DNA of 49,426 nt from NCBI GenBank assembly GCA_016867495.1, contig VGJL01000007.1:1-49426 (forward strand), given 5' to 3'. The notes under the pieces were generated by a model, which was given only the letters and a program-made list of their open reading frames with translations, made no database searches and was not told the origin of the DNA. This DNA comes from Candidatus Eisenbacteria bacterium. Its GTDB lineage: Bacteria; Eisenbacteria; RBG-16-71-46; CAIMUX01; VGJL01. The position numbers were made by a program, and so were the translations under genes. Shown one piece after another: positions 27,013 to 36,200 of the stretch; within the stretch, counting starts at the first letter, position 1; each line of letters begins with the position of its first letter.

Positions 27013-28389
27013 CTACTCCGCGACCCCAAACACCACCGGGGCTGTGACGATCGGTCCCGGCCCTTGCGGCGGACCGGGAAGCGGGAGGCTCCCGCGCGCC
27101 TGGTAGCGTCCCGGACCAACGATCTCTCCTCCATCTGCGCGGCCGTCCCACGACTCTTCCCACACAATCCGTCCTCGCGCGGGAATCGTGACTTCCGTGA
27201 GGACGGTCGCGAATCCCTTGCCGGAGGACCACCGCCAGAGCGGCAGGGGACGCATCATCCTGGGATCGTCGATCGCGAAGTCGTACGTCTGGGTGGATGG
27301 GAAAGTCAGGATGACCGGAACCGCCGAGCGATTGGCCACGATGAGCCGGAGCGTTCGAGGAGAGCCCGGCGGCGCGACGGTCGGCTCCAATGTGAGGCGA
27401 ACGGCGAGAGATGAATCAGGCGGCGGGGACTCCGGGGCGACGCCGATCCGCCGCGGCCTCACCGGCACCGGCCGATGCGCCGGAACGATCGCGGTCGCCT
27501 CATAGCGTCCCTCCTCCGCGACGCCGCCGTCGTTGTGAACTCCAGGCCATTCGACCTCGAAGGAGAGGCTGTCTCTGGGGCCGAGGATCAGTTCCGTCGG
27601 CACGTCGTTGAAGGGTCTTCCATAGGCCCAGTTCCAGACGAGCGAGAGCGGATCGCCCGGGTGTCCGCCGCCGGGATGGTCGCCGCCCCGTCCACGCCCT
27701 CCGCCGCCGCCTCCGCGGCCATGGCCGTTCCCCATTCCCTGCGGATCCCCGTCGCAACCACCGGAGTCCCTCCCCGCACCTCCGGGAAGCGAGTCCGGGC
27801 CGAGGATCATCGGTCCCTTCACCAGGGCATCGAACGTCTGCGACGTGCGGAACCGGAGGGTCTCGGGTCTATCGGCTCTGTTCAGCAGGCGAAGTCGGAT
27901 GGTGCGCGTCGTTCCCTCGATGGCGACTCGCGGCACGACATCGACACGCCCGACGATCGCTCTGCGCGGATGGATCCGAATGGGGTACTCGATCTCGCCC
28001 GAGCCTCCGCGGATCCGGACGACGCACTCCCCCGCCGCCGGCGCGGTGACCGTCGCGATGCCTCTGAAGCCTCTTTCGCCTGCCGGCTCTCCGGCGCGCG
28101 CCCCGACGGGGGTAACTGTGATCAGGCGCCCCTCTCGGAGAACATCGAAGCCGGAGAAACGCCAGGACCGATCGGGAGCGCTTCCCCAGATCTCGACCTC
28201 GAACATCTCTCCTTCCTCTGCCGCCTCGGGGACGATCGCGCCGTCGACATCGGGGAGAATCTCCTCGATCCTGGTTGGGGTCTCATCGCCGCAGCCGGCG
28301 ACCACGGCAAGGGCAAGGAAGACGGGCAGGATGGCCGCGAGACGCGGAAGGATGGAAACGCGGCGAAGCGCAGGGGATCTGGCATCCAT
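27013..28389 (-). CDS. Lipoprotein with two BsuPI-type domains and a glycine-rich insertion
   Basis: A 458-aa predicted lipoprotein. ATG 28389 follows GGAGGAA; the lipobox is VAGC (Cys about 33). Two C-terminal domains match the intracellular proteinase inhibitor BsuPI fold: the first (about 155-295) with FRTSQTFDALV, the second (about 320-450) with LTFPSTQTYDFAI, LPLWRWSSGKGFATVL and SWDGRADGGEIVGPGRYQA. The first domain is interrupted by about 40 residues rich in Gly, Asp, His and Arg (near 205-245). BsuPI domains are found in cell-envelope proteins and their general role is unclear. First gene of the string leading to pnp. Confidence 0.8.
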   Translation of the reverse strand: MDARSPALRRVSILPRLAAILPVFLALAVVAGCGDETPTRIEEILPDVDGAIVPEAAEEGEMFEVEIWGSAPDRSWRFSGFDVLREGRLITVTPVGARAGEPAGERGFRGIATVTAPAAGECVVRIRGGSGEIEYPIRIHPRRAIVGRVDVVPRVAIEGTTRTIRLRLLNRADRPETLRFRTSQTFDALVKGPMILGPDSLPGGAGRDSGGCDGDPQGMGNGHGRGGGGGGRGRGGDHPGGGHPGDPLSLVWNWAYGRPFNDVPTELILGPRDSLSFEVEWPGVHNDGGVAEEGRYEATAIVPAHRPVPVRPRRIGVAPESPPPDSSLAVRLTLEPTVAPPGSPRTLRLIVANRSAVPVILTFPSTQTYDFAIDDPRMMRPLPLWRWSSGKGFATVLTEVTIPARGRIVWEESWDGRADGGEIVGPGRYQARGSLPLPGPPQGPGPIVTAPVVFGVAE

Positions 28390-28646
28390 GGGTTCCTCCG
28401 TGCTGGAAGGCGGCCCCGTACCGGGGATCGTACTCCTTTCGATGGCGCCTGAGAACCGCCTTCGCTCCCGTCCCCAGACCGGCGCGATCGCCCGCCCCTC
28501 GGGGCTGGACCGTCCCGCGCTCATCTGAGACACTCGCATGGTGCATCTGCCCCGCGCCGCGAATGAGAAGATGGCGGGGCGAAGAAAGTCGGCGGAGGCG
28601 TCCTGGCCTCACGGTGTCGCGCGAGGCCAGGCCACAGGGGGTCGCC

Positions 28647-29105: not shown

Positions 29106-29707
29106 TGAAGGCAGGGATGACGGCGTTGATTGCGCTGCTCCTCTCGACTCTCGGGGGGTGGCCGCAGGCAGAGGCGCAAGGTCGCGCGCAACCCAGACCG
29201 CACGGGACTCGGATCGAGGTTCCCGCCGACCGGATCGAGGTTGATGACGGCGACACGGTGACGATCGATTGGCCGGACGGCGATCGCGAGATCGTGCGGA
29301 TCCTGGGGATCGACACGCCCGAGACGCAGCACATCGCCCACGATCTGCCGTTTGATCAGTCATTCGGGCGGGAAGCCCTCGGTTTCGCGCGGGGCGCCTT
29401 CGCGACGGCGACGAAGGTGGAGATGGTCCGCGCGTCGACGAAGGACACCTACGGCAGGACGCTCGGCTATCTGTTCCTCAACGGCCGGAACTACTCGGCC
29501 ATGATTCTCGGGGCCGGGTTGGCGGAGGAGTCGGTCAGCAGATATGGCGACAACGGCCTGCCCGCGGAAGCGGAGGCCTGCCTCGCGGCATCGAGGGAAG
29601 CGGGGCCGCTCCCCTTCGAGAGCCCCGGCGAGTTCCGCAAGAGGATGCGGGAAGTTGCGCGCTGGATGCGCGACCGCGGCCTTCTGCCGAAGAAGGAGAG
29701 CGACTAG
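29102..29707 (+). CDS. Secreted thermonuclease (SNase-like)
   Basis: A 201-aa exported nuclease with signal peptide (about 1-25). SNase motifs are present: DDGDTVTIDW (metal Asp), VRILGIDTPET (Arg, Asp and Glu of the catalytic set, about 68-78), and KDTYGRTLGYLF (second catalytic Arg, about 118). It should hydrolyse DNA and RNA outside the cytoplasm with calcium. Translationally coupled to the hemerythrin-like gene by a 4-base overlap; a functional link is not obvious. Its stop is 9 bases from the convergent nucleotidase stop. Confidence 0.9.
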   Translation: MMKAGMTALIALLLSTLGGWPQAEAQGRAQPRPHGTRIEVPADRIEVDDGDTVTIDWPDGDREIVRILGIDTPETQHIAHDLPFDQSFGREALGFARGAFATATKVEMVRASTKDTYGRTLGYLFLNGRNYSAMILGAGLAEESVSRYGDNGLPAEAEACLAASREAGPLPFESPGEFRKRMREVARWMRDRGLLPKKESD

Positions 29708-29716
29708 CCCGCGGAA

Positions 29717-31225
29717 CTAGCCGATCACGACCCTCCTGCCATCATAGGCCGGGCGGACGACCTGCTTGCTGCGGATGTAGTCCGTCAGGACCTGGAGCCT
29801 CGACCTTCCGGTGTCGGCGACCGGCACCTCCTTGAGGGCGAAGCCGGCGAAGTAGGAGTTCGTCGCTCCCGTGTAGATGGCGTCCTCCGCGATCGGCTCG
29901 CCCGCCACCGTCGCCTCGACCAGCTCCCCGTACTCGATCCGATACCGGATTCCGGAGACCGCGGGGGCGTGACGGAGCAGGAGCCTCTTCAGGTCGCGCC
30001 CCGCGATCTGGAAGGTCACGACCGTGTTGCCGAAGGGCTCGAGAGTGACCAGGTCGGCCAGGGTGATCTCCCCCTTGATCAAGGGGGACCGCACGCCTCC
30101 CAGGTTCTCGAGCTCGAACTGCGTCCCGAAGGTCTCGCGAACGGCGTCGGCGACCAGGTTGTACTCGGCGCGATCGTCTCCCCGTCCGCAGAAATCGGCG
30201 CTCGCGCGGCCGATCACCTCCCCGTAGCGGGCGGCGATCGGATCCCAGTACTTGCGCACGACGGCCTCGACCACGGAGTCGGGCCGGATGTCGGCCGTCA
30301 CGGGGATCAGCCGCGCCCTGTAGCGGTCCACCCGCCAAGTTCCTCCCTGCCCCTTGGAGAAGAGAAGATCGAGCCGCCCCAGCTCTCCTCCCCACTGATG
30401 CGCCTGGACGATCACGGTCCCGTTCTGGTCATCGGCGATGAGGTCCTCGGACCGCCAGACGACTTCCCCCGAAGGAAGCCTCGAGTGCGAGTGCGCGCCA
30501 ACGATCACGTCGACCCCGGGCACCTCGGAAGCGAGCCGCTCGTCCTGCTCCCGGCCGATGTGAGAGAGGACGACAACGATGTCGGCCCTCCTCCTGGCGT
30601 CCTCCACCAACTTCCTGGCGGCTTCGATCTCGTCTATGACCTCGATTCCCTCCTTGGCCGCGGGGTAGCCGGCGGCCTCTCGCGTCACGAGCCCGATGAG
30701 AGCGACGCGGACCGGTCCGACCTTCTCGATCACATACGGCTCGGCGAGCGGCCTGCCCGTGCTCCTTTCCGTGGCATTGGCGCAGAGAACGGTGTATTCG
30801 GCGGCCTGAATGAGCTTCTTCAGCCGGGCGAGGGTGTTGTTGAACTCGTGGTTGCCGAGCACCGCGTAGTCGTATCCCGCCGCGCTCATCGCAGCCACAT
30901 CCGCCTCGCCGCGGTATTCGGTCGAGAAGGGAGTCCCGTCACAGATGTCGCCGGCGTCCACCAGCCAGACTTCCGTCCCTCTTTTCCGGAGATCCTCCCG
31001 GATCTCCCTCGCCAGGGTCGCCCGGCGCGCGATGCCGCCGATGTCGCTCCGCACATCAGGGTCTTCGTCTCCCGCCGAGAGAGTCGGATAGCTGAATGGG
31101 AGCAGATGGCCGTGCGTGTCGTTGGTGTGGAGGATGGTGAGCGCCGCCGTCTCCGCCAGAACGGAAGTGGACGGAGACAGGAAGGCGACGGCCGCAGCCG
31201 CCAGGAATGGAGCGAACGACTTCAC
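29717..31225 (-). CDS. Secreted 5'-nucleotidase/2',3'-cyclic phosphodiesterase family protein
   Basis: A 502-aa periplasmic metallophosphoesterase with signal peptide (about 1-24). Metal-binding motifs in order: LHTNDTHGH (about 33-41), VDAGDICDGTPFS (about 90-102), LGNHEFN (about 123-129), VLSHIGRE and GAHSHSRL. The C-terminal substrate domain has ENLGGVRSPLIKGEIT and LEPFGNTVV. It probably works with the adjacent thermonuclease to recover phosphate and nucleosides from nucleic acids. The start is GTG 31225, after the ideal site AAGGAGGT. Confidence 0.93.
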   Translation of the reverse strand: MKSFAPFLAAAAVAFLSPSTSVLAETAALTILHTNDTHGHLLPFSYPTLSAGDEDPDVRSDIGGIARRATLAREIREDLRKRGTEVWLVDAGDICDGTPFSTEYRGEADVAAMSAAGYDYAVLGNHEFNNTLARLKKLIQAAEYTVLCANATERSTGRPLAEPYVIEKVGPVRVALIGLVTREAAGYPAAKEGIEVIDEIEAARKLVEDARRRADIVVVLSHIGREQDERLASEVPGVDVIVGAHSHSRLPSGEVVWRSEDLIADDQNGTVIVQAHQWGGELGRLDLLFSKGQGGTWRVDRYRARLIPVTADIRPDSVVEAVVRKYWDPIAARYGEVIGRASADFCGRGDDRAEYNLVADAVRETFGTQFELENLGGVRSPLIKGEITLADLVTLEPFGNTVVTFQIAGRDLKRLLLRHAPAVSGIRYRIEYGELVEATVAGEPIAEDAIYTGATNSYFAGFALKEVPVADTGRSRLQVLTDYIRSKQVVRPAYDGRRVVIG

Positions 31226-31372: not shown

Positions 31373-31846
31373 TTACCTGTGGAGCGAGCGAAGCGCGCCC
31401 CACGATTGCCTCACCACCGACGGGGCGATGATCGCCGTCGGCAGACGGCATTCCCCCTGGTCGATCCCGACAACTGCGGGCGCAGACCCGGGGCCTTCCA
31501 CATCCACCTCCACCTGCCCGCACAAGCCAGCCCCGCGCCAGACACGGACGAGGTAGCGGCCAGGAGGAATGCCCGCTGCCGCATAACCTATGTTGAAGCA
31601 GCAGACGCAATCACAGTGGGGGCCGACATCGCCTTCGCTGAAGTCGAGGATCTGCCCATCGATCCGGAGGTCGACAGTCAGGTCCAGGCAGCAGTTCATC
31701 TCCGCGTTCAGATGCTGCACGGAAACCGTGTCTCCCCTGGACGCGGCCAGGATGACATCGTCTCCGCAGTGCCCCCCGGCGCAGGCGGCGGGCGACACGA
31801 AGGAGCACAAGAACATGATGACGAGAACCCCGCGGGACGCTCTCAT
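31373..31846 (-). CDS. Cysteine-rich secreted protein with C-terminal SWGALRSLHR tag
   Basis: A 157-aa exported protein, paralogous to the product of 31941-32435. Signal peptide about 1-23. Shared landmarks are a first Cys after the signal, GDTVSVQHL, NCC (about 51-53), the dense motif CDCVCCFN (about 77-84), GIPPGRYLVRVW and IDQGECRLP. The protein ends SWGALRSLHR, matching the tag at 21713. Cysteines probably form disulfides or bind metal outside the cytoplasm. ATG 31846 is preferred to GTG 31855 because it begins the signal peptide. No named family is known to me. Confidence 0.78.
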   Translation of the reverse strand: MRASRGVLVIMFLCSFVSPAACAGGHCGDDVILAASRGDTVSVQHLNAEMNCCLDLTVDLRIDGQILDFSEGDVGPHCDCVCCFNIGYAAAGIPPGRYLVRVWRGAGLCGQVEVDVEGPGSAPAVVGIDQGECRLPTAIIAPSVVRQSWGALRSLHR

Positions 31847-31940
31847 GTGAGACACCTACTTCGCGGACGCCGGCCGATCCGGCCACTGGATCCCCGACGC
31901 CTCTATCCCCGGCGGTCTTTCCTCACAACGCCCCAGAGCC

Positions 31941-32435
31941 CTACCAGTAGAGGGTCCTGAGCTTCCCCCAGCTCGTCAGGCGCCGCTCGGATCCGGGGGG
32001 ATCGTCGACGACACCCGGTTCGAGGCACTCGCCTTTGTCCACTCCGCCGGCGAAGGGCTGCGTCCCGGATCCGAGGACATCCACCTCGGTCTCGCCGATG
32101 AGGTTCCCGAATCCGTCCCAGACCCTGACGATGTAGTGGCCGGGCGCGAACCCCGCCCCGTAGTAGCGCAGGTTGAAGCAGCAGGTGCAGGTGCAGAACG
32201 GCTCGAACTCGGTCTCGTAGAAGTTGGCGATGAACCCTTCCGTCTCGAGATCGATGACAAGGATGGAGCAGCAGTTCTTCGGCGCCTGGATGTGGTGGAC
32301 ATAGATCGTGTCGGCCCTCGAGGAGGCCTGGATGGCCTCTCCCGTGCACCACTGCGCCAGCGCCGGGGCGGGCGCAAGGGGTGCGAGCAGCAGAAGAGCG
32401 ACCAGCGGTAGAAGGGCGATTCGGCCGCGCATCAT
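31941..32435 (-). CDS. Cysteine-rich secreted protein with C-terminal SWGKLRTLYW tag
   Basis: A 164-aa exported protein, paralogue of 31373-31846. Signal peptide about 1-28 (ends APALAQ). It shares the order Cys, ADTIYVHHI, NCC, CTCTCCFN, GFAPGHYIVRVW, EVDVLGSG, VDKGECLEP, then the end SWGKLRTLYW. The start MM at 32435/32432 follows GGAGGG. The two copies are separated by about 95 bases and face the same way, so they arose by tandem duplication. They diverge from the ABC exporter; a role as exporter cargo is possible but unsupported. Confidence 0.8.
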   Translation of the reverse strand: MMRGRIALLPLVALLLLAPLAPAPALAQWCTGEAIQASSRADTIYVHHIQAPKNCCSILVIDLETEGFIANFYETEFEPFCTCTCCFNLRYYGAGFAPGHYIVRVWDGFGNLIGETEVDVLGSGTQPFAGGVDKGECLEPGVVDDPPGSERRLTSWGKLRTLYW

Positions 32436-32577
32436 GGCACGGTCCCTCCTTTCCCCCGGCAAGAGGATAGCCCTTCGACGTCCTCGCATCAAGGAGTCCC
32501 TCGGCGCCGGGGTGAAGCCCGGGGGTGAAGCCCGGAGATTGCTCCCGCGGGCCGGAGGGAGTAGCCTTGGCGGACTT

Positions 32578-34377
32578 ATGTGGTGGTTCGAGGATGAGGA
32601 GCTGCCCGAGGACATCCGCTATGTCCGGCACCTTCCGTTCCGCGAGATGCTCGGTCGGATCGTCCCGCTCTTTCGGCCGCAGATCGGCCCGCTTCTGCTC
32701 GGCACGTTCCTGCTTCTGATCTCCGTGGGCGCGGAGCTGGCGGGACCCCTCGTCCTCCGCCGGCTCATCGACCAGAACATCGCGGCGCAATCGAGATCGG
32801 GCATCCTGCAGAGCGCCACGCTCTATGCCTGCCTCTTCGCCGCGGCGACCGCCGCCAGCTACTTCCAGGTCGTCATCCTCACGAAGATGGGCCTGGCGAT
32901 CGTCACCTCGCTGAAGCAGAGCGTCTTCCATCACCTGCTCGGGCTCTCCCTCGCCTACTTCGACAAGAACCCCTCGGGAAAGCTTCTCGCGAGGGTCGAG
33001 TCGGACACCGAGAGGCTTCAGGGCCTCTTCTCGGAGGTGGCCCTTTCGCTGCTGCGGACGCTCATCCTGATGCTCGGGATCCTGGGGATCATGTTCGCCG
33101 CGAACTGGCGCATCACGGTCTCGATTCTCGTCCTGGCGGCGCCGGTCGTGGCCGGCACGATCATCTTCTTCCGCTGGATGCGCGGCCTCTACCGTCGGGT
33201 CCGCGGGTTCTACGCGCGGATCTCGGCCTTCGTGTCGGAGTACCTCCAAGGAATCCCCGTCCTCCAGGTCTTCGGATACGAGCGCAGGGCGGCCGAGCGC
33301 CTCTCGGCCCTCAACAAGGACAAACTCGTGGCCGAGCGGAACGCCTCGATCTTCGAGTACGGCTTCTGGGGATTCCTGACGGGGCTCGAGGTGGTCGCGG
33401 TCATCGTGATCCTCTACCTCGGGTCGGGACGGCTCATCGGCGCGACGATGACGGTGGGAACGCTGGTTCTCTTCATCGAGTACACGCGGCGCGCCTTCTG
33501 GCCCCTGGCGATGTTCTCCGAGCAGGTGAACTTCATCCAGCGCTCCTTCGCGTCCGCCGACCGGGTCTTCGGCGTCCTCGACACCCCGTCGCGGACGCCC
33601 GATCGGCCCGACGCCCTGGAGCGGATCCCGGAGGACTGGCGGGAAGTGGCTTTCGAGGATGTCTCGTTCGAGTACGACGGGGGCGCCAAGGCCCTCGATC
33701 GCGTCTCCTTCCGCGTGCGGCGCGGCGAGAAGATCGCAGTCGTGGGCCTCTCGGGGGGCGGGAAGACGACGATCACGAACCTCCTGCTTCGCTACTACGA
33801 GCCCACTTCGGGGAGCGTCACGCTCGACGGCGTCGACATCCGTTCCTTCGCGCAGAAGGCCTGGCGGGCTCGGATCGGGCTCGTGCTTCAGGAGATCCAT
33901 CTCTTCCCGGGAACCGTGGCCGAGAATCTCCAGGCGCTCGCGGAGGAGATCCCGCGCGAAGACCTCGAGAGGGCCGTGCGGGTCGTCGGGGCGGAGGAGG
34001 TGATCGCCCGCCTTCCGAAGGGATACGACGAGCCGCTCGCCGAGGGGGGAGGCAACCTCTCGATGGGCGAGCGCCAGCTCCTGAGCTTCGCGCGGGCGGT
34101 CGTGCGCGACCCCGACCTGCTGGTCCTGGACGAGGCGACATCCTCGATCGATCCGGGGACGGAGCGCAGGCTCCAGAGGTCGGTCGATCGCCTGCTCGCC
34201 GGGCGGACGTCGCTCGTCATCGCGCATCGCCTGGCCACGATCATCTCCGCAGACAGGATCCTGGTCCTGCACCACGGGCGTCTGATCGAGGAGGGGACGC
34301 ACGAGGAGCTGTACGCCCGGGACGGGATCTACCGGGATCTCTTCGATCTGCAATTCAAGAGCGGGGCGGCGGCATGA
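32578..34377 (+). CDS. ABC exporter half-transporter, consensus ATPase subunit
   Basis: A 599-aa type IV ABC exporter half with six membrane spans (about 38-320) and a C-terminal ATPase. Walker A is GLSGGGKTT, Walker B LLVLDEATSSID with the catalytic Glu, and the H-loop IAHRLATI. Its signature motif is NLSMGERQ instead of LSGGQ. The next gene, overlapping by ATGA, encodes the partner with the complementary pattern, so the pair is a heterodimer like TM287/288 or BmrCD. The substrate could be a drug, lipid or peptide. ATG 32578 gives the usual start; no good ribosome binding site is near, although a TAGCCT at 32562-32567 may be a -10. Confidence 0.92.
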   Translation: MWWFEDEELPEDIRYVRHLPFREMLGRIVPLFRPQIGPLLLGTFLLLISVGAELAGPLVLRRLIDQNIAAQSRSGILQSATLYACLFAAATAASYFQVVILTKMGLAIVTSLKQSVFHHLLGLSLAYFDKNPSGKLLARVESDTERLQGLFSEVALSLLRTLILMLGILGIMFAANWRITVSILVLAAPVVAGTIIFFRWMRGLYRRVRGFYARISAFVSEYLQGIPVLQVFGYERRAAERLSALNKDKLVAERNASIFEYGFWGFLTGLEVVAVIVILYLGSGRLIGATMTVGTLVLFIEYTRRAFWPLAMFSEQVNFIQRSFASADRVFGVLDTPSRTPDRPDALERIPEDWREVAFEDVSFEYDGGAKALDRVSFRVRRGEKIAVVGLSGGGKTTITNLLLRYYEPTSGSVTLDGVDIRSFAQKAWRARIGLVLQEIHLFPGTVAENLQALAEEIPREDLERAVRVVGAEEVIARLPKGYDEPLAEGGGNLSMGERQLLSFARAVVRDPDLLVLDEATSSIDPGTERRLQRSVDRLLAGRTSLVIAHRLATIISADRILVLHHGRLIEEGTHEELYARDGIYRDLFDLQFKSGAAA

Positions 34378-36200
34378 CCGGCGGCGCGCCGCCGCGCCCC
34401 TCGGCCGAGGGCGCCGTCCGCCTGACGACCAGGGAGCACATCGCTTGGCTCGCCGCCTTCTGGAAGCCCCACCGGCGGTTCCTGGCCTTCCTGCTCTTCT
34501 TCACGCTGGTGTCGAGCGCGGTCGTCATCGCCTATCCGCTCGTCTTCCGCAAGGTGATCGACGGGGTCTATGGGGCGCTCGAGACGGCCTATCCCGAGAA
34601 GACGACGCTCCATCGCCTCCTCGGCATCCTCGTCCTGATCGCCGTGGGCCGTACGATCGCCGGCTTCTATCCGGCCTTTCGGGCCTGGATGAACCTGAAG
34701 CTCGAGAAGGACGTGCGCGAGCGGGTGTTCGGCTCGATCCTCTCGAAGGACTACACGTTTCTGGGCAGGTTCAGGACGGGCGACCTCGTCACCCGCCTCA
34801 CCGACGACATCGCCGAGTATCCGCGCATCGCCTGGTTCGGCTGCTCCGGCGTCTTCCGCTTCGTCGACTCAGCGTCGAAGTTCCTCTTCTGCGTGGGGGC
34901 CATGCTCTTCCTCGACACGAAGCTGGCCCTTCTGTCGATGATCCCCGTCCCCTTCATGCTCTATGTCTTCTATCTGGCCCGCCAGGAGCTGGGAAACACC
35001 TACAGGAAGCAGCAGGAGGCGGTCTCCCGCACAAACAACACGATCGAGGCGGCCTTCTCCGGCATCCGGATCGTGAAGGCTTTCAACGCCCAGACGGGTC
35101 AGCAGAATCGACTCGCGTCCATCCTGCGCGAGCGGATCGCCATGCAACTGAAGCTCGCCAAGCTCGTCGTCCTCGTTCACGAGATGGACAACATCGCCAG
35201 CCGCCTGGGCCAGGTCGTCGTTCTCTCGCTGGGCGGGCTCGCCGTCATCGAGGGGAGGCTCTCGGTGGGCACGCTGTACGCTCTCTATGTCTACCTGGAC
35301 ATGTTGATCTTCCCGATGATGGACATCCCGAACCTCTTCGTCAGCGCGCGCCAGGCATTCGTCTCGATCGATCGCGAGGAGGAAGTCCTGAGACATCCGG
35401 TCGTCGTCCGGCATGACTGCTCCGGCGACCCGCCCGGACCGATCCAGGAGATCGCCCTGGAGGGTGTGGGGTTCCGCTTCCGAGACGATCTCCCCGCCGC
35501 GCTGCGCGAAATCACGTTCCGCGCGGCGCGTGGCCGGAGGATCGCCATCGTGGGGCCGGTCGCGAGCGGCAAGTCGACCTTGCTGCGGCTGCTCGCCGGC
35601 CTGCTGCCGGCGCAGAGCGGGACATACTCCGTGAACGGACGGCCGTTCGAGGAATGGGACTGGAGCTCCCTGCGCCAGAGGATCGGCTACGTCCCTCAGG
35701 AGTCGGCGCTCTTCTCGGAGACGATCGACGAGAATGTCTCCTTCGGCCGCGCCTGCGATCCGGAGTGGACCCTGCGCTGTCTGGAAGTGGCGCAGATGGG
35801 GCCCGATCTGGAGCAGATGAAGGAGGGGATCCGGACCCAGCTCGGCCAGCGCGGGACGCTCGTCTCAGGCGGACAGAAGCAGAGGATCGCGATCGCGCGC
35901 GCCCTGGCGGGGCGGCCCGACGTGCTCCTGCTGGACGACTGCACCGCCTCTCTCGACGCGAGGAACGAGGACCTCTTCTGGACGGGACTCGACGCGCTCT
36001 TCCCCGACGCCACGAGCTTCATCGTCTCGCACAGGCTGGCCACCATCAAGCGAGCGGACGCGGTCCTCGTCCTCGACCGCGGGAGGATCGTCGATCAGGG
36101 CACGCACGAGGAGCTGGCCGCCCGGTGCGACATCTACCGGGACTTCCTCCAGACGGAGGAGCGGAAGAGCCATCTGGAGGTCGCCCCGGTGGACGCGTAG
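34374..36200 (+). CDS. ABC exporter half-transporter, degenerate ATPase subunit
   Basis: A 608-aa partner of the preceding half-transporter. Six membrane spans occupy about 35-330. Walker A is GPVASGKST, the signature is VSGGQKQ, Walker B is LLLDDCTASLD, where Asp replaces the catalytic Glu, and the H-loop is VSHRLATI. In heterodimeric exporters the Asp-containing half forms the non-hydrolytic site, and the consensus site pairs the partner's Walker motifs with this half's signature; the residues seen here fit that scheme. Start overlaps the upstream stop (ATGA). Confidence 0.92.
   Translation: MTGGAPPRPSAEGAVRLTTREHIAWLAAFWKPHRRFLAFLLFFTLVSSAVVIAYPLVFRKVIDGVYGALETAYPEKTTLHRLLGILVLIAVGRTIAGFYPAFRAWMNLKLEKDVRERVFGSILSKDYTFLGRFRTGDLVTRLTDDIAEYPRIAWFGCSGVFRFVDSASKFLFCVGAMLFLDTKLALLSMIPVPFMLYVFYLARQELGNTYRKQQEAVSRTNNTIEAAFSGIRIVKAFNAQTGQQNRLASILRERIAMQLKLAKLVVLVHEMDNIASRLGQVVVLSLGGLAVIEGRLSVGTLYALYVYLDMLIFPMMDIPNLFVSARQAFVSIDREEEVLRHPVVVRHDCSGDPPGPIQEIALEGVGFRFRDDLPAALREITFRAARGRRIAIVGPVASGKSTLLRLLAGLLPAQSGTYSVNGRPFEEWDWSSLRQRIGYVPQESALFSETIDENVSFGRACDPEWTLRCLEVAQMGPDLEQMKEGIRTQLGQRGTLVSGGQKQRIAIARALAGRPDVLLLDDCTASLDARNEDLFWTGLDALFPDATSFIVSHRLATIKRADAVLVLDRGRIVDQGTHEELAARCDIYRDFLQTEERKSHLEVAPVDA

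Follow-up and report, generated by a model that had tools for sequence, protein, structure and literature searches.

The locus and its two genes

Two small genes lie in tandem on the minus strand of the window, a stretch of 49,426 nucleotides spanning contig C7 of a Candidatus Eisenbacteria genome (3.35 Mb) from end to end. The original prediction had described them as a pair of secreted paralogues, and this description was borne out: both genes were found exactly at the predicted coordinates, on the minus strand, both products begin with a predicted signal peptide, and A and B are 45% identical over B residues 11-163 (E 8.6e-37). The pair is made up of the following features.

31941-32435, minus strand: protein B, predicted secreted cysteine-domain protein with a WG tail, 164 aa, ATG at 32435
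32355-32435, minus strand: predicted signal peptide of B, residues 1-27, MMRGRIALLPLVALLLLAPLAPAPALA, recognized by eye, with n-, h- and c-regions typical of Sec/SPase I
32025-32348, minus strand: cysteine domain of B, C30 to C137 (C, H48, NCC, E74, CxCxCC, C137), from the invariant columns of alignment A1
31944-31976, minus strand: C-terminal tag of B, T-S-W-G-K-L-R-T-L-Y-W, from the tail family
31373-31855, minus strand: protein A, paralogue of B, 160 aa, from alignment and pairwise comparison
31778-31855, minus strand: predicted signal peptide of A, about residues 1-26, recognized by eye
31448-31768, minus strand: cysteine domain of A, C30 to C136, from alignment A1
31376-31405, minus strand: C-terminal tag of A, S-W-G-A-L-R-S-L-H-R, from the tail family

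The start codon of A is the GTG at 31855, an ATG three codons further in also being possible. The cysteines of B (C30, C55, C56, C81, C83, C85, C86 and C137) are all present in A, which has one extra, and their common order is C, NCC, CxCxCCFN and GEC, in agreement with the shared spacing originally proposed. The most informative feature of the pair is nevertheless one that the original prediction overlooked, the C-terminal tail shared by A and B.

Near the pair lie a 5'-nucleotidase (29717-31225; PF00149 and PF02872) and, divergent from A and B, two ABC half-exporters (about 32572-34377 and 34374-36200) with Pfam matches to ABC_membrane and ABC_tran, among which peptidase C39 was not found. 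These positions are as first described. The functional link that they might suggest found no support in eight other loci, none of which keeps the exporter and nucleotidase linkage: they have no neighbour in common with the window, save an ABC ATPase at one locus whose 30% identity is no more than a general family resemblance. Because the neighbourhood is not conserved, the exporter and the nucleotidase are probably bystanders. That A and B would be cargo of the adjacent exporter pair, for instance as bacteriocin-like peptides, is highly improbable. The genes are indeed adjacent and divergent, but the leader is by eye of the Sec type, and the two-gene exporter is kept at none of the eight other loci. 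Unlike ABC-exported double-glycine peptides, A and B have neither a double-glycine leader nor a conserved linkage to a peptidase-containing exporter. Elsewhere in the window, a secreted-looking protein (27013-28539, minus strand) shows a match to the BsuPI (intracellular proteinase inhibitor) domain in three stretches, and a protein that by eye resembles a secreted thermonuclease (about 29120-29707, plus strand, DGDTVTIDWPDGDREIVRILGIDTPET) adjoins the nucleotidase.

An unnamed family of cysteine domains

No Pfam or NCBIfam model matched A or B at permissive thresholds, and sequence searches of the PDB with A1, A2 and the lipoprotein L017 (see below) gave nothing above chance, in keeping with the original view that the two proteins belong to no named family. 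A contig search with B alone returned no relative, and a phage search with the Bacteroidales relative returned no match. A protein search of 47 genomes of the phylum gave matches in seven, the window's own included. The proposed cysteine cluster withstood comparison with these homologues, the arrangement C..H..NCC..CxCxCC..C being kept by all 11 close members of the family that were compared, including one from outside the phylum. The invariant columns of alignment A1 are C30, H48, N54, C55, C56, E74, C81, C83, C85, C86, G99, V120 and C137, and the mature part holds eight cysteines in seven of the 11 close members and nine in the rest. L149, from outside the phylum, is related to A and B over the full length, shares the same set of eight cysteines and ends in the tag.

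The family extends further. A profile search added a protein from another Eisenbacteria genome, L017 (L024:5903-6850), that resembles a lipoprotein and contains the cysteine domain twice in tandem. Searching with L017 returned only itself and a Bacteroidales lipoprotein, L025, and a profile built from the three domains of these two proteins matched eight further Bacteroidota genomes. The Bacteroidota matches that were read comprise four lipoprotein-like proteins and one with a sorting domain of the type IX secretion system (T9SS). Over the 18 sequences compared, only N-C-C and C-x-C-x-C are invariant: the most remote branch has lost the His and the Glu while retaining NCC and CxCxC, and in the L017/L025 branch the fourth cysteine of CxCxCC is absent and another is present upstream, so that the total stays at eight. 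The cysteine domain is an unnamed family whose members include both Bacteroidota lipoproteins and proteins of Eisenbacteria.

Modelled with AlphaFold, B and the Bacteroidales relative reached a mean pLDDT of 56 and displayed, at this low confidence, only an all-beta core. Foldseek searches with these weak models gave no significant match, the top match of the B model being the NigD-like structure 3qwn at a non-significant E of 0.56. A NigD identity was rejected: A, B and their relatives have no Pfam NigD_C match at permissive thresholds, and the cysteine motif of A and B is absent from the NigD_C proteins that were fetched.

The cluster had been proposed to bind metal or to form a disulfide knot, and the second half of this proposal fared better than the first. 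A metal-binding site would be suggested by the dense CxCxCC and by His48 and Glu74, both invariant in the close family, but the proteins are predicted to be exported, their mature cysteines number eight in most close members, and the remote branch drops the His and the Glu and yet keeps NCC and CxCxC. One cysteine position is moreover exchanged for another in a remote branch. The exported location, the even number of conserved cysteines and this exchange together favour disulfides, and a disulfide-bonded domain appears more likely than a metal site, which we consider improbable.

A C-terminal tag on exported proteins

A version of W-G-x-I-K-x-L-Y-R ends all close relatives of A and B but L008. 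Genomes were searched at the DNA level with a strict pattern, W-G-x-[ILV]-K-x-[LIV]-[YF]-[RK]-stop, the reversed pattern serving as a control. In the genome of the window, the strict tag closes 11 further genes (reversed control 0); all these matches are ends of open frames, and the translations are mostly unrelated secreted proteins, with a signal peptide in nearly all. Across the phylum, 571 matches (summed from the table of counts) are spread over 41 of the 47 Eisenbacteria genomes, again with none for the control, and the nine genomes of family f11 (G038-G046) hold six tags in total. Each of the 70 stretches fetched contains an open frame with the tag at its end. With signal peptides scored by a home-made rule rather than by SignalP, a signal-peptide-like start was found in 60 of 64 complete tag frames versus 25 of 110 neighbouring frames.

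The conservation exceeds what the search imposed. Outside the pattern, the residue at position -10, just ahead of the W, is S or T in 73 of 76 tails and P occupies -15 in 56; the profile of these tails also shows P-[TVS]-P-[TAV], lying five to eight residues N-terminal to the W. Within the pattern, the K at -5 is near-fixed. The carriers are diverse: Pfam matches of 64 tail proteins include beta-helix, lamin-tail, laminin-G-like, spondin, SdrD_B and other domains in a few, most having none, and 102 tail proteins stripped of their last 30 residues fall into 43 single-linkage clusters. A TM-like stretch occurs within the last 45 residues in two of 104 tails, upstream of the motif, and is absent from the other 102. 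The tags of A and B themselves are atypical and fall outside the strict pattern, with R for K at -5 or the equivalent position and with the endings H-R and Y-W. Many tail proteins (L044, L055, L057, L059, L061-L063, L068 and L072-L074) contain repeat modules, one to five in number, of the form GACCFxDGxCxxxxxxxCxxxGGxxxGxxxxCxPxPC, which have no Pfam match.

Mere paralogy or chance is a very improbable source of the shared tail. Some tail proteins are paralogous, the largest of the 43 clusters having 33 members, but the clusters have no detectable similarity to one another upstream of the tail, the reversed pattern gives zero matches in the phylum and positions outside the pattern are conserved. 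At the sequence level, these observations show a conserved, phylum-wide and multi-copy C-terminal tag on predicted exported proteins, slightly atypical in A and B.

The tag is also found beyond the phylum. Among the other bacteria sampled, 11 genomes from seven families (f36, f77, f80, f110, f146, f170 and f225) hold 13-57 tags each, the remaining non-phylum genomes of that spread having 0 to 3, mostly none. Twenty stretches from five tag-rich non-phylum genomes yielded 25 tag proteins, with a signal peptide in 22. Of 118 Bacteroidota genomes, about 41 contain the pattern, each about once. The four Bacteroidota tag proteins that were read (L109-L112, from G120, G107, G082 and G099) are of one kind, ending in [RS][TS]WG[STM]IK; they are secreted, roughly 150 aa long, fibronectin-like by eye and single-copy, with neighbours that differ.

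Possible sorting or attachment, and alternative readings

The cysteine domain is not bound to one kind of tail. In L008 it is followed by FlgD_ig and not by the WG tag, in L036 it carries the T9SS sorting domain PF18962 (Por_Secre_tail), and the cysteine-domain proteins L025, L029, L030, L033 and L034 have, by eye, a lipobox. In L068, a choice_anch_E domain (NCBIfam, E 4.1e-43) precedes the WG tag. This choice-of-anchor E domain (NF033208) is, unlike the tag, a cargo domain, and the tag of L068 sits where other anchors sit. The sequences thus show a common tag at the very C-terminus of many unrelated proteins with predicted signal peptides, which lacks a transmembrane segment and is exchanged with sorting domains.

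The diversity of the exported carriers, the exchange with known localization signals and the choice-of-anchor E domain in a tag protein all point to a new short C-terminal sorting or attachment tag. A and B would then be two-part exported proteins whose tag is read by a putative envelope machine, a reading to which we assign a probability of roughly 60%. The first part would be a small all-beta domain with about four disulfides (C / NCC / CxCxCC / C), and the second, after a linker often rich in Pro and Thr, the tag [ST]-W-G-x-[ILV]-K-x-[LIV]-[YF]-[RK]-COOH. After Sec export and removal of the signal peptide, the tag would most likely be recognized by the envelope machine and the protein moved to, or held at, the outer membrane or cell surface, by analogy with the T9SS C-terminal domain or the CTERM tags of other bacteria. 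We infer surface delivery, a dedicated receptor and disulfide pairing. As for the role of the cysteine domain outside the cell, our guess is a structural or ligand-binding one at the surface. Against the sorting reading, the tag could instead serve folding, oligomerization or membrane binding, the tags of A and B are themselves atypical and SprA, the T9SS translocon, does not track the tag, being present in the tag-poor family f11 as well.

The nearest known counterparts are the PEP-CTERM, GlyGly-CTERM and MYXO-CTERM tags, handled by exosortase, rhombosortase and myxosortase, respectively. Like the WG tag, they are short C-terminal homologies shared by many otherwise unrelated signal-peptide proteins of a genome, in families that swap tails (PMC1569441, PMC3237569, PMC11980579), and tail exchange between sorting systems was described for GlyGly-CTERM (PMC3237569). 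The CTERM tags are, however, tripartite, with a motif, a transmembrane helix and a basic cluster (PMC1569441, PMC3237569, PMC11980579), whereas the WG tag lacks the transmembrane segment and ends with the motif itself; it is therefore not a CTERM tag of a known kind. The open-access literature searched makes no mention of an Eisenbacteria sorting tag or of the motif string, an absence that does not prove that neither has been published.

The tag might also be a minimal substrate signal of the T9SS, with one translocon reading both it and the FlgD_ig-type C-terminal domains. SprA is encoded in 46 of the 47 genomes of the phylum (38 over the curated cut-off), the window's own included (G000:C3), and FlgD_ig domains are plentiful in every one of them. 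T9SS C-terminal domains (Por_Secre_tail, PF18962 / TIGR04183; FlgD_ig, PF13860) resemble the tag in being C-terminal on Sec-exported proteins and in occupying the same place on the cysteine domain (L008 and L036). On the other hand, they are folded beta domains of about 75-80 residues, compared with about 10-18 for the tag. TIGR04183, PF18962, PF13585 and FlgD_ig have no C-terminal match in A, B or their tail-bearing relatives, nor are they among the families listed for the 64 tail proteins. SprA was also tried as a separator of tag-rich from tag-poor genomes, and it fails, as f11 possesses it. Since both SprA and FlgD_ig occur in f11, which has almost no tags, the T9SS may handle the tag or have no part in it, and we regard its identity as a T9SS signal as possible but doubtful. 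Somewhat less probable still is an amphipathic C-terminal helix that binds the membrane or a neighbouring protein unaided, with no dedicated machine. The hydrophobic W, I, L and Y do alternate with K and R, and the helical moment of the last 11 residues averages 0.44, versus 0.33 in shuffles (maximum 0.37). Nonetheless, the near-fixed K at -5 and the S/T at -10 are stricter than amphipathicity requires, and the W and G, although imposed by the pattern, are kept in all but one or two of the cysteine-family relatives found without it.

Going beyond sorting or attachment as such, we tentatively consider that the WG tag could be the recognition signal for a sorting or attachment route at the outer membrane that is as yet undescribed and distinct from both the T9SS and sortase-like systems. 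In Eisenbacteria and in several bacterial families beyond them, a genome would route dozens of its proteins in this way, and many Bacteroidota would have a single-copy version on one small secreted fibronectin-like protein.

The interest of the finding lies in the tag rather than in the cysteine cluster. C-terminal sorting tags reveal the destination of surface proteins and point to the enzymes that handle them. If the sorting reading is true, a tag that mostly uncultured lineages place on about 10 to 57 proteins per genome would allow hundreds of hypothetical proteins to be assigned together to one localization class. The search for the partner machine would also become computable, by setting the presence or absence of candidates against tag counts, with the Eisenbacteria family f11, which has SprA and FlgD_ig and almost no WG tags, as a natural and useful negative set.
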